Positions 7,739 to 51,389 of a DNA stretch of 64,000 nucleotides are shown in pieces. Within the stretch, counting starts at the first letter, position 1. The number at the start of each line of letters is the position of its first letter. A model generated the notes under the pieces. It had not been told where the DNA came from, searched no databases, and saw only the letters and a list, made by a program, of their open reading frames with translations. Source of the stretch: Rathayibacter caricis DSM 15933 (lineage in GTDB: Bacteria; Actinomycetota; Actinomycetes; Actinomycetales; Microbacteriaceae); NCBI RefSeq assembly GCF_003044275.1, contig NZ_PZPL01000001.1, positions 310,001 to 374,000 of the forward strand, read 5' to 3'. The position numbers and the translations under genes were made by a program.

Positions 7739-8194
7739 TCAGGCCTCGACGTCGCCGCGCCAGGCGCCGTCCGGGGTGCCCTTGGACTCGATGTACTCCT
7801 TGAAGTTCTTCAGGTCCTTCTTGACCGCGTGGCTGCCGGCGCCGACGAGCGAGCCGATCGACTCGAGGAAGCCCTTGGGCTCCCAGTCCAGCTGCACGGT
7901 GACGCGGGTCTCGGAGTCCGAGAGCTTGTGGAAGGTGACGACACCGGCGTGGTCGGTCTCGCCTCCGGTGCTGTTCCACGCGACGCGCTCGTCGGGGTGC
8001 TGCTCGGTGATGTTGGCCTCGAACTCGCGCTCGACGGGGCCGACCTTCACCTTCCAGACGGTGAGGACGTCGGTGACCTGCTGGATCGACTCGACCTCGT
8101 CGAGGAACTTGGGGAACTCCTCGAACTGGGTCCACTGGTTGTAGGCGACGGACACGGGGACGTTGACGTCGACGGTCTCGATGATCTGCGGCAC
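7739..8194 (-). CDS. SRPBCC (polyketide cyclase/START-like) family protein
   Basis: A 151-residue protein from the ATG at 8194. The opening IIETVDVNVPVSVAYNQWTQFEEFPKFLDEVESI is the signature of the coenzyme Q-binding/polyketide-cyclase type SRPBCC domain, with the helix-grip strands WKVKVGPVEREFEANI and WNSTGGETDHAGVVTFHKL and the long C-terminal helix GAGSHAVKKDLKNFKEYIES. Such domains bind hydrophobic ligands or act in stress responses; the ligand is unknown. It is followed at three bases by a small acidic protein gene. Confidence 0.87.
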   Translation of the reverse strand: MPQIIETVDVNVPVSVAYNQWTQFEEFPKFLDEVESIQQVTDVLTVWKVKVGPVEREFEANITEQHPDERVAWNSTGGETDHAGVVTFHKLSDSETRVTVQLDWEPKGFLESIGSLVGAGSHAVKKDLKNFKEYIESKGTPDGAWRGDVEA

Positions 8195-32835: not shown

Positions 32836-32883
32836 GGGTCCTCCTCCTGGCCCGGTCGGCACCGGACGGGCATACCCTACTAT

Positions 32884-32898
32884 CGAGAACTGTTCTCA
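32884..32898. promoter_or_regulatory. Zur-like box between COG0523 and L36 genes
   Basis: CGAGAACTGTTCTCA contains the perfect dyad GAGAAC-T-GTTCTC and, read on the minus strand, TGAGAACAGTTCTCG fits the actinobacterial Zur pattern TGANAANNNTTNTCA. It lies 26 bases before the L36 start and 48 bases before the divergent COG0523 start, so it could control both. Confidence 0.72.
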
Positions 32899-32924
32899 TT
32901 AACATCGACAACACGGAGGAACGC

Positions 32925-33047
32925 ATGAAGGTCCGCAATTCGCTCAAGAACCTCAAGGACCAGCCCGGCTCGCAGATCGTGCGGCGCCGCGGCCGGGTGT
33001 TCGTGATCAACAAGCAGAACCCGCGGCTGAAGGCGCGGCAGGGCTGA
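32925..33047 (+). CDS. rpmJ: 50S ribosomal protein L36, cysteine-free (zinc-independent) paralog
   Basis: A 40-residue protein from the ATG at 32925 behind GGAGG. It reads [20 protein letters not shown]..., then [20 protein letters not shown]. The residues match the YkgO-type L36: the zinc-ribbon cysteines and His are absent. Such C-minus paralogs replace the zinc-containing L36 in the large ribosomal subunit when zinc is scarce, freeing metal, and are repressed by Zur in zinc-replete cells. The Zur-like box just upstream and the divergent COG0523-like gene agree with this role. Confidence 0.93.
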
Positions 33048-40639: not shown

Positions 40640-42909
<2,270 letters not shown>

Positions 42910-42912
42910 GAA

Positions 42913-42949
42913 GTGCATTGTTGCACGAGATGCATACTCGGTTGCACGA
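42913..42949. promoter_or_regulatory. Repeated GTTGCACGA operator before the TetR-DHA2 operon
   Basis: GTGCA (42913-42917) and TGCAC (42922-42926) form a dyad with a four-base spacer; GTTGCACGA occurs at 42920-42928 and again at 42941-42949, exactly two helical turns apart, with ATGCAT between them. The cluster starts four bases from the TetR start. Confidence 0.68.
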
Positions 42950-43029
42950 CTCACGTGGCTCGCGAAGCACCGGTTGGCATATCTAAACCCTTTCCACTCA
43001 ATTGGTTCGTAGAGTTTTAGAATGAGCAG

Positions 43030-43995
43030 GTGAGCACTGCAGGGCCATCGTCTTTGAGCGAGTTGCTCCTCGATACGGGGATCGCAGCGGACATCTCCGA
43101 TGCCCGGCACCTGCGGATAGCGCTGCCCTTCCGTGACGTGATCCATGTGCATCTCGTCGTCGGCTCTCGTCCGCCTACTCCGTCCGAGATGCGGGCGCGC
43201 CGGGCGTCGGCGGACCCGGGCACGGTCACGGGGTTCGTGACACCCCGCGTGAACGCGGCAGCCCGACGCGTGGCGCTCGAGGACACGCGCTTCGCCCTCT
43301 TCGGCCTCGACGACGGCGTCGTGATCCTCGGAGGAGAGGAGCGGAGCACCCGCGGAGAGGAGCCGGCCCACCGCATCAGCCCTCGTGCGCCGTACGCGCG
43401 CTTCGCGCTCTACCGGGCGCTCGTGCGAACTCGGGAGCCCAGATCGCAGACGACCCTCGCCGGGGAGTGCGGCGTCTCGCAGATGAGCATCTCGAAGCTC
43501 CTCGCGGCGGACCCGGCTTTGGCCGGGAGGACCTCGGGCGGATGGCTCGCGCACGACCCGACGTCGCTCGTCGAGCGCTTCCTCGCCGACTATCCGGGCC
43601 CGGGCGGGCTCTCCGAGTTCTGGTTCTCTCCCCGCCCGGTCGTGGAGCAGGGGGAGATCGCGTCGACCACCGACGTCTCAGTGCTGCTCTCCGGTGACAC
43701 GGCCGCCGACCGTCTCGCCCCGTGGAGGATCCCGAGACGAGCGCGGGTCTACTGCGATCACAGTCTTCCGCTCGAGGAAGCCGGCTTCGGCCGGACCGAT
43801 CCCCGCGAGGCCTCGTTGCACGTCACGATCCCGGCGGACCGGACGATCCGGGCCACCGCGACAGCGTGGTACCCGGACGGCCGGACCGTCGATCCCCTCG
43901 TCGCCGCCTGGGACCTCCGGTCCACCGGTGGTGCCGATTCCTCCGAGGCAGTCGATCGCCTTCTGAGCACGGCGATGACGTCGTGGACGCGATGA
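43030..43995 (+). CDS. AbiEi-like HTH protein, putative antitoxin
   Basis: A 321-residue protein from a GTG at 43030; the ATG at 43023 is in another frame and stops at once. Residues 138-160 (RSQTTLAGECGVSQMSISKLLAADP) look like a helix-turn-helix. The N-terminal part (FRDVIHVHLVVGSRPP, TPRVNAAARRVALEDTRFALFGLDDGVVILGG) and the C-terminal part (WRIPRRARVYCDHSLPLEEAGF) match nothing well known. The gene overlaps a nucleotidyltransferase-like gene by ATGA, the arrangement of AbiEi/AbiEii toxin-antitoxin systems. The promoter region 42960-43022 is strikingly AT-rich for this genome, suggesting acquisition. Confidence 0.65.
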   Translation: MSTAGPSSLSELLLDTGIAADISDARHLRIALPFRDVIHVHLVVGSRPPTPSEMRARRASADPGTVTGFVTPRVNAAARRVALEDTRFALFGLDDGVVILGGEERSTRGEEPAHRISPRAPYARFALYRALVRTREPRSQTTLAGECGVSQMSISKLLAADPALAGRTSGGWLAHDPTSLVERFLADYPGPGGLSEFWFSPRPVVEQGEIASTTDVSVLLSGDTAADRLAPWRIPRRARVYCDHSLPLEEAGFGRTDPREASLHVTIPADRTIRATATAWYPDGRTVDPLVAAWDLRSTGGADSSEAVDRLLSTAMTSWTR

Positions 43996-44744
43996 GAGCC
44001 GTCGCGCTTCCTTCTCTGTCGCGCGCCGACGATGCAGCTTTTCTCGCCCTCCACGACGCCTCGCTCGCGATCGCCGATCTCGAGGAGGCCTGCATCGTCG
44101 GCGGTCAGATGGTGGCGCTCCTGTCCGCCGCCTTTCCGAGTCCGTCGACGACCACGCGCCGGACAGTCGACGCGGATGCCGCCGTCTCGCCCGTCATCGC
44201 GGCATCGGGAGCGCTTCACGCGAGTCTGACGTCTCGTGGATACACGTCGACGGCGGGCAACCACTACATCCTGGGCGAGCGTGAGATCGACGTCCTGGTA
44301 CCGGCGACCGGCGGCGGGTTCGAGAAGGCGGAGTACGGAGGACGCGGATTCGATGGTGCGCCCGGACTGCACCTCGCGTTGAGCGGCACGATCGCCCTCG
44401 ATGTCACGGCGGTCCTCCTCGCGGGCGCTCCCCTGCGGTTCGCCACTCGAGTGCCCGGAGTGGAGCGGGCGCTGATCGTCAAGGCGCTCGCGTACGAGTC
44501 GCGCCGATCGCAGAAGGACCTGGCGGACCTCTTCACACTGCTCCTCATCAGGGAGGCTCACGACGCCGATGCCCTCGGCGGCTGGCACATAGGCGACGCC
44601 GCCGCCCCCGGAGCTCGCCGGGACGCCGCGCTCGCGCTGCACCGGCTCGCAGGAGCGCCCGGCCTCCGCCTGATGTTGAGGGGATCGGACGTGCCGCAGG
44701 GGCGCTTCGCCTCCCTCATCCGCACCTACGTTGCGGAAAGCTGA
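43992..44744 (+). CDS. AbiEii-like nucleotidyltransferase, putative toxin
   Basis: Started at the ATG at 43992, overlapping the upstream stop (250 residues). The MNT-fold pattern is visible: CIVGGQMVALLSAAF, then RTVDADAAV with Asp60 and Asp62, a third acidic strand REIDVLVP (Asp100), and a later helix PGVERALIVKALAYESRRSQKDLADLFTLLL, which matches the Lys...KD signature of AbiEii/AbiGii-type enzymes. Such proteins modify RNA or protein acceptors with nucleotides and arrest growth during phage infection. Role in defence is inferred from the pair and motifs. Confidence 0.72.
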   Translation: MRAVALPSLSRADDAAFLALHDASLAIADLEEACIVGGQMVALLSAAFPSPSTTTRRTVDADAAVSPVIAASGALHASLTSRGYTSTAGNHYILGEREIDVLVPATGGGFEKAEYGGRGFDGAPGLHLALSGTIALDVTAVLLAGAPLRFATRVPGVERALIVKALAYESRRSQKDLADLFTLLLIREAHDADALGGWHIGDAAAPGARRDAALALHRLAGAPGLRLMLRGSDVPQGRFASLIRTYVAES

Positions 44745-44841
44745 CCCGCCGGGCCCGACATCCGGAGGCCGGAGTCCACCTCCGTCGAGAGGCGAGCGAG
44801 GGCACTCACGCCCTCCGAACCGAGCGGGCGGGTCCCCTAGC

Positions 44842-46374
44842 TCAACCGACCGATCCGGCTGCGACGCTCGCGAGGTACTCCTCGGAAGCTACCTCGGTTC
44901 GGAACTCGAGGATCTCCACCGCATGCGCCTTCAACTCAAGAAGCACCTCCTCAGGAGTCACGTAGAAGAACTCGCGTCGGAGGTTGATGCGATTCACCCG
45001 CTTGTCCGAGAACACCTGGTGCAGCATCGACTCGACCCCGACCGCGTCGTCGGCGAAGAACAGGGCGTGAACGTCGAAACGGAACGGCACCGAGGCGTCG
45101 CCCAGCTCGTTCACCCGGTCCATCGGCTCGAGACGCCTCGTCATGCCGATCTTGACCATCTGATCGCCGAACGCACCCCGATTGGAGATGACGTAGACGT
45201 AGCCCGCGCGGATGTTGGCCGCGCGATAGTCGACGTCGTGCAGCGCTCGATCGACATCCGCGATACGTGCACGCAGACGCTGGGCTCCCTCGGCGTCCCC
45301 GTTCGCTTCCAGCGCGGCGAGCGTGGCCGTGTAGTGCGCCTTCTCTTTGTCGAGCCGCTCGTGCTCTCGCGCCAGTTCCTGCTCGGCCTTGCGCTGCTCT
45401 CGCAGCTCCTCCCGACGGGCCCGCTCCATCTCCTTCTCCCGCTGGAGAGCCTGAAGATGCTGATTGGCGAGCTGGATCTCGGTCAGCCGCAAGTGGTGGT
45501 AGTCGGGATCGATGGTCAGCGTGATCATCTTTCCCTGACGCTCGATCATCTCGACCGCCTTGCTCAGGCGAGCCTGTGCGACGGCGAGGTTGCCTGCGCG
45601 GACCGTCTTGACGCAGTTCTCGGCTTCGGCGTTGTACGCGCGCAGCAGGATCTTCGTCATGTCGCTCACGAAGCGTCGACCCTGCGCTTCGGAGCCGTTG
45701 AAGGTGAAACCGCTCGATGCGCGGGCGGCGGTCTTGTCCCTGACCGCGGCTTTGATCCGGGACCGCACGCCCTCGAGCCGGGTCGCGAGATCGGCCGACG
45801 CCTCCGCCGGATGCTCGTAGTCGTACAGGCCGAGCTCCTGGATGTCTGCCGTCTGGCGGACACCGACGATCTGCGACAGGACGCCGTCGAGCTCACGCCC
45901 GCGGTCCAGGAGCTGTGCCTCCACTTCGGCAAGGGCGGCCCGCACGGAAGCCGCTCGCGCCTCCTCCTGCGCCGAGCGCGACTCGAGTTCCTGCTGCCAT
46001 CGGCTCTGCTCCTCGGCGATCTCCATGCGCCGACGGTTCTTCTCCGCGTCGAGCTCGGTGAGATCAAGGATTCCGTAGCGCTCAAGAGCGTCCTCGAGCT
46101 CGGCGACGCGCGACCCCAGTTCCCTCGCCCTCTTCCTCGCCCCGAAGAAGGGGACATCGACGCCTGGAGAGGCATCGGCAGCGGAGTCCGCGGTGCTCTG
46201 CTCCGCTCGCTTCTCCGCGCGGCGGCTCTCACGCCGGGACACCGGCTCCCGGTCAGCGTTCGTCTCGGTGACCGGAGCCACCGGGTGGGTGTGCTCCGTC
46301 CATGAGGCACCGTCCCAGTACCGGAGTATCGACGGATCGGTCGGGTCGGGGTACCAGTTGGCTGCGGCGCTCAC
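44842..46374 (-). CDS. DUF2510-coiled coil-DUF4041-GIY-YIG (T5orf172-like) protein
   Basis: Started at the GTG at 46374 (510 residues), directly before AANWYPDPTDPSILRYWDGASWTEHTHP, a DUF2510 domain; ATGs at 46395 and 46455 are possible but add an unrelated leader. Then come Arg/Glu-rich helices, a DUF4041-like core (GFTFNGSEAQGRRFVSDMTKILLRAYNAEAENCVKTVRAGNL), and a long coiled coil (QALQREKEMERARREELREQRKAEQELAREHERLDKEKAHY). The end is a T5orf172/Mug113-type GIY-YIG domain: GYVYVISN, MVKIGMTRR, and Glu in VESMLHQVF. Related proteins occur in phages and defence islands. Function unproven. Confidence 0.85.
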   Translation of the reverse strand: MSAAANWYPDPTDPSILRYWDGASWTEHTHPVAPVTETNADREPVSRRESRRAEKRAEQSTADSAADASPGVDVPFFGARKRARELGSRVAELEDALERYGILDLTELDAEKNRRRMEIAEEQSRWQQELESRSAQEEARAASVRAALAEVEAQLLDRGRELDGVLSQIVGVRQTADIQELGLYDYEHPAEASADLATRLEGVRSRIKAAVRDKTAARASSGFTFNGSEAQGRRFVSDMTKILLRAYNAEAENCVKTVRAGNLAVAQARLSKAVEMIERQGKMITLTIDPDYHHLRLTEIQLANQHLQALQREKEMERARREELREQRKAEQELAREHERLDKEKAHYTATLAALEANGDAEGAQRLRARIADVDRALHDVDYRAANIRAGYVYVISNRGAFGDQMVKIGMTRRLEPMDRVNELGDASVPFRFDVHALFFADDAVGVESMLHQVFSDKRVNRINLRREFFYVTPEEVLLELKAHAVEILEFRTEVASEEYLASVAAGSVG

Positions 46375-46494
46375 GAGTCCGAGCGTAAAGGGCATCTGTC
46401 GGCCAAGTGTTCGCCTCTCGGTGCGACACGGGAAATCTCCGGTACTCCGGCTCACAGAACAGCAGAAAGACTCTGATCGCCTTTCATCTACCCG

Positions 46495-49820: not shown

Positions 49821-49913
49821 CGCGGTCCCCTCGTCGTGATGCTCGGCGGTCCTCCGCCGGACGGCTTCGGGAGCGACGCCGCGAACGCCACTGTAACGCG
49901 CGGAGCACGATTC

Positions 49914-49944
49914 TGTAGATCGGTCCACGAATTCGTGTAGATCG
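49914..49944. promoter_or_regulatory. LacI operator candidate CACGAATTCGTG with flanking direct repeats
   Basis: A perfect 12-base palindrome at 49926-49937 lies between two copies of TGTAGATCG (49914-49922 and 49936-49944), immediately before the -35 box of the divergent importer operon. Confidence 0.7.
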
Positions 49945-49945
49945 A

Positions 49946-49975
49946 TTGACACGTTTCACGGCGCCGACGTATGTT
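49946..49975 (+). promoter_or_regulatory. Promoter of the ABC importer operon
   Basis: TTGACA (49946-49951), an 18-base spacer, and TATGTT (49970-49975) form a sigma-70-like promoter. The candidate LacI site abuts the -35 box, so binding would block polymerase. Confidence 0.72.
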
Positions 49976-50072
49976 CTCCCTGCGCGGCCCGCCGGACGGC
50001 CCTCCGGCCACTGCGGCCGACCGCCGCAGGGCACCCCGCAACAACGAAGTTGTCTTTACATGGAGGTAAAGG

Positions 50073-51389
50073 ATGTCGACCCGACAGAACCGGCGAGCAG
50101 TGCTCGCCCTCGGCGCAGGAGGAGCGGCGCTCGCTCTCGCGCTCACCGGCTGCAGCACCGGCGGCGGCGATTCCGCCGACGGATCGACGCTGTCGATCCT
50201 CATCGACAACACGGAGCTCGCCGGCGCCCAGATGGACGCCCTGGTCACCGCCTACAAGGAGGTGAACCCCGACGTCACGATCGAGGTCGAGACCCGCCCC
50301 GCCGGCAGCGAGGGCGACAACGTCGTCAAGACCCGCCTGGCCACGGGCGAGATGGCCGACCTGTTCGGCTACAACTCCGGATCGCTGTTCCAGGCGCTGA
50401 ACCCGGACCAGAACCTCGCCGACCTCTCGGACGTCGAGTGGAAGGACTCGCTGACCGAGGACTTCCAGCGCGTCGTCTCGACCGAGTCCGGCTTCTACGG
50501 CGCTCCGCTGGGCCAGTCCTTCGGCGGCGCGGTGCTCTACAACAAGGACGTGTACGCCGAGCTCGGCCTCTCGGTCCCGACGACGTGGGACGAGTTCCTC
50601 GCGAACAGCGAGGCGATCAAGGCCGCCGGCGACGTCGCCCCGATCGTGCAGACCTACGGCGACACCTGGACCTCGCAGCTCATGGTCCTCGGCGACTTCG
50701 CCAACGTCCTCGCCGAGAACCCGGACTGGGCCGACGAGTACACGGCCGGCGACGCGAAGTACGTCGACCAGCCCGCTCTGGCCGGTTTCGAGCACCTGCA
50801 GGAGGCCGGCGAGGCCGGGCTGTTCAACGAGGACTTCGCCTCGGCGACCTACGACGACGGCGTGCGGATGGTCGCCACCGGCGAGGGAGCGCAGTACCCG
50901 ATGCTGACGTTCGCGTCGCAGCCCCTCGTTGCCAACTACCCCGACGCGGCGCAGACGGTCGGCACGTTCCCCCTCCCCGGCGAGTCGGCGGACTCGAACC
51001 CGCTCACCGTCTGGCAGCCCGGCGCGGTCTACGTCTCGAAGACCGTCGAGGGCGAGAAGCTCGAGGCGGCGAAGGACTTCCTCGCGTTCCTCGTCTCGCC
51101 CGAGAGCTGCGACATCCAGAGCGAGCAGACCGTCGTGCAGGGCCCGTACGTCATCGACGGCTGCGACCTCCCCGAGGACGTCCCCGCGATGATCTCGGAC
51201 ATGCAGCCCTACTTCGACAGCGGGGACACGGCGCCCGCGCTGGAGTTCCTCTCGCCCATCAAGGGACCTGCGCTCGAGCAGATCACCGTGGCCGTCGGCT
51301 CCGGGATCACCTCGGCCGCCGAGGGCGCCCAGCAGTACGACGACGACGTGACCAAGCAGGCCCAGCAGCTCGGCCTCGAGGGCTGGTGA
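50073..51389 (+). CDS. Sugar ABC-transporter substrate-binding lipoprotein
   Basis: A 438-residue protein from the ATG at 50073, behind GGAGGTAAAGG. A lipoprotein signal ends in ALTGC (Cys27). The body is a family-1 solute-binding protein: LSILIDNTELAGAQMDALVTAYKEVNPDVTIEVETRPAGSEGDNVVKTRLATGEMADLFGYNSG and GAPLGQSFGGAVLYNKDVYAELGLSVPTTWDEFL. First gene of the importer operon, with two permeases following. It captures an oligosaccharide, probably containing rhamnose, on the outer face of the membrane. Confidence 0.93.
   Translation: MSTRQNRRAVLALGAGGAALALALTGCSTGGGDSADGSTLSILIDNTELAGAQMDALVTAYKEVNPDVTIEVETRPAGSEGDNVVKTRLATGEMADLFGYNSGSLFQALNPDQNLADLSDVEWKDSLTEDFQRVVSTESGFYGAPLGQSFGGAVLYNKDVYAELGLSVPTTWDEFLANSEAIKAAGDVAPIVQTYGDTWTSQLMVLGDFANVLAENPDWADEYTAGDAKYVDQPALAGFEHLQEAGEAGLFNEDFASATYDDGVRMVATGEGAQYPMLTFASQPLVANYPDAAQTVGTFPLPGESADSNPLTVWQPGAVYVSKTVEGEKLEAAKDFLAFLVSPESCDIQSEQTVVQGPYVIDGCDLPEDVPAMISDMQPYFDSGDTAPALEFLSPIKGPALEQITVAVGSGITSAAEGAQQYDDDVTKQAQQLGLEGW

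Follow-up and report, generated by a model that had tools for sequence, protein, structure and literature searches.

A candidate chromosomal toxin-antitoxin operon of the AbiE/MenAT superfamily in Rathayibacter caricis

Do two overlapping genes in the genome of Rathayibacter caricis DSM 15933 (4.12 Mb) encode a toxin and its antitoxin? The genes lie at 43030-44744 of a 64,000-nucleotide stretch of DNA analysed here as the window (G000:C1:310001-374000), and a sequence-only reading had seen in them an AbiEi/AbiEii-like toxin-antitoxin pair. Our analysis supports that reading: with a probability of roughly 0.8, the pair is a chromosomal toxin-antitoxin operon of the AbiE/MenAT superfamily, belonging to a COG4861(AbiEi_2)-COG4849-like branch. 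The computational evidence consists of the fold and motifs of the toxin, the distant homology of the antitoxin family to AbiEi_2 proteins, the linkage of the two genes, their one-way decay, and a widespread operator-like repeat upstream of them.

The antitoxin candidate, open reading frame 1 (ORF1), occupies 43030-43995 on the + strand, starts with GTG and encodes 321 aa. The toxin candidate, ORF2, runs from an ATG at 43992 to 44744 (+) and encodes 250 aa, so that the two genes share the ATGA overlap described earlier (start at 43992, end at 43995). A 340-aa reading frame at 43722-44744 was rejected as an artefact of an in-frame GTG further upstream; relatives align from the ATG at 43992. Among 8000 candidates scored, the closest named relatives of both proteins come from Rathayibacter species (Microbacteriaceae). 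Compared with six same-genus copies, both genes had ratios of nonsynonymous to synonymous substitution (dN/dS) of 0.17-0.42, and both look like real genes under purifying selection.

The candidate toxin (43992..44744, +) has the features of an AbiEii/MenT-like nucleotidyltransferase. Motifs I and II, located by residue conservation in aligned relatives, lie at 44097..44177 (+) and read V36-G37-G38 and R56-x-T58-x-D60-A-D62; motifs III (K164-A-L-A-Y-E-S-R171) and IV (K175-D176-x-x-D179, +DxxD) lie at 44481..44528 (+), following definitions in the excerpted text of PMC3985639. The residues pointed out by the sequence-only reading are thus present, and every residue named in the motifs is found in 38-43 of the 44 aligned rows. 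The hG[G/S]...DhD pattern of motifs I and II with its Arg was found, with V or I at position 36 in 43/44 rows, G37, G38, R56 and D62 also in 43/44, and D60 in 42/44. For motifs III and IV the counts were 43 for K164, 42 for R171, 40 for K or R at 175, and 42 each for D176 and D179; A167 was found in 32/44 rows and an aromatic residue at 168 in at least 29/44. Motif III partly resembles the KLxAaxxR of COG4849. The GG-to-DAD spacing of 21 is above the x9-13 or x15 given in the same excerpts. T58, a conserved Ser/Thr next to a catalytic Asp, sits at the spacing of the MenT phosphoacceptor (compared with T39/D41 of MenT1, and with S78 of MenT3 and its D82 as named in the PDB title). A predicted fold unlike MNT/AbiEii had been put forward as the result that would speak against the earlier reading; structure comparison of the model instead found a MenT/JHP933-type fold. 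At the level of sequence profiles, the window toxin did not match PF08843 (cut-off 22.5 bits), 12/44 rows did so at E<=1, and one of 10 relatives scanned one by one exceeded the cut-off (P0049, 23.1 bits). Weak PADLOC AbiEii matches were found for 14/44 relatives at E<=0.1.

The antitoxin and autorepressor candidate (43030..43995, +; structure model pLDDT 82.6, pTM 0.64) divides into an N-domain (aa ~1-100), a winged helix-turn-helix (HTH; aa ~120-176) and a C-domain (aa ~177-321). The HTH (43387..43557, +), presumed to bind the operator, is seen in the model and in profile matches of aligned relatives (MarR_2 in 48/62 and HTH_Crp_2 in 35/62, E<=1), which bears out the earlier placement of an HTH in the middle of the protein. 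The two-domain layout with an N-terminal winged HTH (AbiEi, COG5340) was not found, as the HTH lies behind a separate N-domain. That N-domain (43030..43329, +) may have a PD-(D/E)XK nuclease-like fold, and the presumed catalytic residues are absent in the window antitoxin. The AbiEi_2-like C-domain (43558..43992, +), presumed to neutralise the toxin, bears the motif SGDxAADxxAPWRxP and possibly has a nucleotidyltransferase-like fold. The window antitoxin alone had no Pfam match; PF09952 (AbiEi_2) was matched over the C-domain by 9/62 relatives at E<=1, and single relatives exceeded its cut-off of 21 bits (L058, 27.2; P0074, 30.6). Local hhalign alignment of the antitoxin family with AbiEi_2 proteins gave a probability of 99 over 294 columns, against 0.3 in control comparisons.

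The linkage and decay of the two genes were followed across loci from one genome per species, with a VGGQM-type motif required, which yielded 70 loci, all read as Actinomycetota. Three loci at contig edges (L014, L035, L064) were left out, and genes were called intact at thresholds of 205/254 (toxin) and 265/329 (antitoxin) model positions. Both genes were intact in 59 of the 67 remaining loci; the toxin alone was broken in seven (L047, L053, L055, L057, L063, L069, L071) and both genes in one (L070). An intact antitoxin homologue was therefore present in 66/67 loci, and no locus (0/67) combined an intact toxin with an antitoxin that was broken or missing. Furthermore, among 398 same-family genomes, in each of which the best 5-6 candidates were scored, 49 had any toxin match and 114 any antitoxin match, many of the latter to the HTH only. 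Strong antitoxins (E<1e-60) numbered 29, with the adjoining toxin intact in 25 cases and broken in four (G108, G216, G255, G326), and each strong intact toxin adjoined its antitoxin. G326 and L047 have identical scores and were taken as one genome. Including G006 of the same genus, this gives 11 apparently distinct toxin-only losses and none in the opposite direction. If losses are independent and sequencing errors absent, the probability of 7/7 one-sided losses falling in the toxin is 0.003 by gene length (0.438^7) or 0.008 at even odds (0.5^7), and that of 11/11 is 0.0001 by gene length; in L055 and L063 the break falls at one and the same model position. G317, examined as a counter-example lacking an in-frame N-domain in its antitoxin, was rejected: its single open frame includes the N-domain, interrupted by an insertion, and the gene was counted as intact. 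The G206 toxin, whose first ~28 positions lie in another frame, is over the 205-position threshold and was also counted as intact. Toxin pieces without a nearby antitoxin (G003, G015, G045) lack the N-terminal part. A mirror-tree correlation over 59 loci (Pearson 0.91, Spearman 0.48) was not taken as proof, since a common species history is enough to produce it.

We consider it very unlikely that frameshift errors in draft assemblies, and not biology, account for this one-way decay. In favour of such errors, numerous source contigs are of draft quality, the majority of the seven cases resemble frame changes, and L055 and L063 may not be independent. However, errors should strike both genes according to length, yet all seven one-sided cases are in the toxin, and the stretches of roughly 25-60 model positions missing from the toxins of G006, G216 and G255 exceed single-base errors.

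An imperfect operator-like inverted repeat lies just upstream of the pair (42982..43021, +; TCTAAACCC ... AGTTTTAGA), with arms at 42982-42990 and 43013-43021. A form of it, CTAAAACC-N22-GGTTTTAG, stands just 5' of the antitoxin start in G007, G008 and G010, and also in the remnant site of G004 described below; imperfect variants occur in G005, G006, G011, G013 and the window, and other repeats in G009 and G012. Other genera have different repeats of similar spacing, such as GTCAAACAA-N26-TTGTTTGAC in mycobacteria and TATAAGTTA-N18-TAACTTATA in Agromyces. After dereplication of 68 upstream stretches to 59, an inverted repeat (arms matching at >=8/9 positions, gap 16-30) was found in 41/59, compared to a mean of 3.3 and a maximum of 7 in shuffled sequences, and a perfect one in 18/59, compared to 0.2. 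Control stretches with 8/9 arms gave 0/59 inside the gene and 6/59 at 700 bp upstream. The presence of this repeat suggests autoregulation. In four Micromonospora loci (L059, L066, L067, L068) one arm of the repeat, ATGCTTATA, shares bases with the start codon of the antitoxin gene, an arrangement that could couple repression to the start of translation. A presumed -10 element, TAGAAT (43018..43023, +), was read from the sequence; it overlaps the right repeat arm and ends 6 nt before the GTG, a position that suggests a leaderless transcript. A scan for consensus promoters found none.

Upstream of the pair and divergent from it are a TetR gene (42265-42909, -) and then an MFS gene; downstream and convergent, between the pair and the next block of genes, lies a gene for a DUF2510-DUF4041-T5orf172/MUG113 protein of GIY-YIG type (44842-46455, -). 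Three direct copies of GTTGCAC(G/T)A at 42893-42949, spanning the TetR gene start and the region upstream of it, are possible TetR operators. A toxin match was found in 11/15 same-genus genomes, as nine intact pairs and two decayed copies: in G006 the toxin is broken and the antitoxin whole, and in G003 the antitoxin was not found and the start of the toxin is gone. In 8/10 other same-genus carriers the pair or its remains immediately adjoin the same block on the downstream side (window 46499 onward), the pair being elsewhere in G009 and G012; with the window and the two broken copies included, 9/11 carriers share the chromosomal site. The window genome carries the GIY-YIG gene at this site, but 0/8 of the same-site carriers do, and G004 does not either; G006, G010 and G014 have close relatives of the gene (73-81% identity) elsewhere in their genomes. 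Weak second toxin-profile matches were seen in G012 (L131, G012:C12, E 3e-9) and G007 (L132, G007:C1, E 4e-8), both of which also carry the main copy. The near relative G004 (~92-97% DNA identity) lacks both the pair and the GIY-YIG gene, window positions 42934-46494 being replaced by ~130 bp that keep a perfect repeat, TCTAAAACC...GGTTTTAGA (L163, G004:C19, about 7880-7960). This stretch appears to be a deletion scar and not a never-occupied site. The orphan operator in G004 could perhaps still be read by a homologous antitoxin encoded elsewhere.

The sequence-only reading had also placed the pair behind an AT-rich promoter region foreign to this genome. The AT-rich stretch itself was confirmed: GC content is 38% at 42980-43029, compared to 72% across the window. 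It is one of a few spots of this kind at a resolution of 50 bp; in 10-bp steps, the window has further 50-bp stretches at <=46% GC only at 32871-32940 and 49911-50090. Its foreignness is not supported. The stretch is the pair's own promoter/operator region, present in relatives and left behind in the empty site of G004, and the pair or its remains occupy the same site in most same-genus carriers. Two mild signs point in the other direction: third-position GC content (GC3) is 0.81-0.84 in the pair, compared to 0.92-0.97 in the TetR, MFS and LysR genes and 0.82 in the GIY-YIG gene. Furthermore, the pair shows ~66-71% DNA identity between same-site relatives where aligned separately, while the flanks show 79-87%; in several of these relatives the flanks are better conserved than the pair, so that it may have evolved faster or undergone allele replacement at the site.

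The closest known systems are pairs of AbiEi_2 (PF09952) proteins and nucleotidyltransferases (L087, L088, L090, and the COG4861-COG4849 pair in the excerpts of PMC3985639), where we take PF09952 to correspond to COG4861. They share the gene order, regulator first, and a regulator of ~320-370 aa with a central HTH, an AbiEi_2 C-domain and an N-domain that aligns as well; the partners in L087 and L088 have a KLxAaxxR-like motif III when read by eye, and those in L088 and L090 fall below Pfam cut-offs. In contrast to these pairs, the window proteins have no Pfam match of that kind, and the present family bears the SGDxAADxxAPWRxP motif. The L090 pair (871-1974 and 1956-2816, in G010:C3) is a second, different AbiEi_2-like and NTP_transf_8-like pair, weakly related to that of the window. 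The COG4861-linked Mycobacterium tuberculosis pair Rv0837c-Rv0836c (MenAT2) is likened by description only. With AbiE of Streptococcus agalactiae (AbiEi, COG5340; AbiEii, COG2253) the pair shares the bicistronic order and DUF1814 motifs I-IV, and excerpts of PMC3985639 and PMC7319586 describe an autorepressor antitoxin with upstream inverted repeats, the counterparts of the candidate autorepressor and operator-like repeat here. However, AbiEi has two domains with an N-terminal winged HTH, whereas the window antitoxin has a central HTH and an extra N-domain, and AbiEi binds 23-bp repeats 3 bp apart, whereas the present family has arms of ~9 bp separated by 16-30 bp. Toxin identity is 12-20% to MenT1 and MenT3/TglT of M. 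tuberculosis, and 17-18% to JHP933 of Helicobacter pylori (4o8s) and 4ok0; the MenT antitoxins differ, MenA1 having 68 aa and MenA3 and MenA4 being AbiEi homologues. Of the earlier description of the pair as a divergent or new type, "divergent" stands, and "new type" is not shown, since annotated AbiEi_2 proteins share the layout and precede nucleotidyltransferase-like genes.

Several results weigh against assigning the pair to this superfamily as a toxin-antitoxin operon. Neither window protein had a relevant match in Pfam, PADLOC or NCBIfam. Taken by itself, the Foldseek search gave modest matches (best E 4.7e-3, TM 0.41), and other nucleotidyltransferase-like structures score about as high as MenT4 (5uvd, 11.7; TM1012, 10.2). 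Local hhalign alignment with 19 PF08843-detected same-family toxins covered 37 columns over motifs III-IV only, at a probability of 1.7%, and sequence homology to those toxins is therefore not demonstrated. Some 20 matches to the toxin profile of lower strength (E about 1e-13 to 1e-4) stand outside the partner count. The toxin was not found in 4/15 same-genus genomes, so the locus is dispensable. Finally, excerpts of PMC10435456 and PMC11375011 report no detectable effect or activity for MenT2 of M. tuberculosis.

If the pair is a toxin-antitoxin operon as proposed, the central HTH of the antitoxin would bind the repeat and repress the operon, and the C-domain would neutralise the toxin, perhaps by favouring the phosphorylation of T58. 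Upon loss of the antitoxin, the nucleotidyltransferase would add nucleotides to tRNA 3' ends, as reported for MenT1 and MenT3, and translation would stop; the toxin probably disables tRNA. The nuclease-like domain at the N-terminus probably has no catalytic activity here and serves DNA or partner binding.

What such an operon is selected for is a separate matter: AbiE kinship fits phage defence, and the plasmid relatives fit stabilisation. We hold it possible, though doubtful, that a true toxin-antitoxin pair acts here in phage defence by abortive infection, as AbiE does. The toxin superfamily is shared with AbiEii, relatives give the weak PADLOC matches noted above, and the GIY-YIG/T5orf172 gene adjoins the pair in the window genome. 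However, the site is shared by 8/10 other same-genus carriers, a pattern scan and tblastn found no relative in viral contigs or phage records, and the window proteins match no PADLOC model, the search for a defence island covering the immediate neighbours only. Positive signs of phage defence were not found. Equally tentative is an addiction or stabilisation module that plasmids dispersed, that became established in chromosomes and that brings no benefit beyond its own maintenance. Toxin relatives occur in 25 plasmid records: on a conjugative Rhodococcus plasmid, for example, only a few genes separate the relative from mobF and a TraM-domain gene, and on a Frondihabitans plasmid recombinase and IS3 genes are close by. 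Toxin decay and clean loss also occur within the genus; residence at one chromosomal site in 9/11 carriers together with purifying selection instead suggests a long stay. More speculative, and in our view improbable, is an antitoxin acting as a three-domain switch, its dead PD-(D/E)XK-type domain, set ahead of the winged-HTH repressor and the neutralising domain, having been turned into a sensor that detects a phage protein or foreign nucleic acid for trigger-coupled abortive infection. We give very little credence to a pair that is not toxin-antitoxin at all, in which a transcription regulator would be joined by a nucleotidyltransferase, co-regulated with it, of metabolic or antibiotic-modifying function.

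Were the three-domain switch true, sensing would free a tRNA-modifying toxin, and the actinobacterial branch would be unlike plain two-domain AbiE. AbiE/MenAT-type systems are abundant, yet the literature, as far as the excerpts cited here go, holds little on the COG4861-linked branch, and profile-based catalogues miss part of the superfamily. The family described here offers many actinobacterial pairs with an operator signature, along with natural copies in which the toxin is dead and the antitoxin alive, and thereby testable non-tuberculous models.
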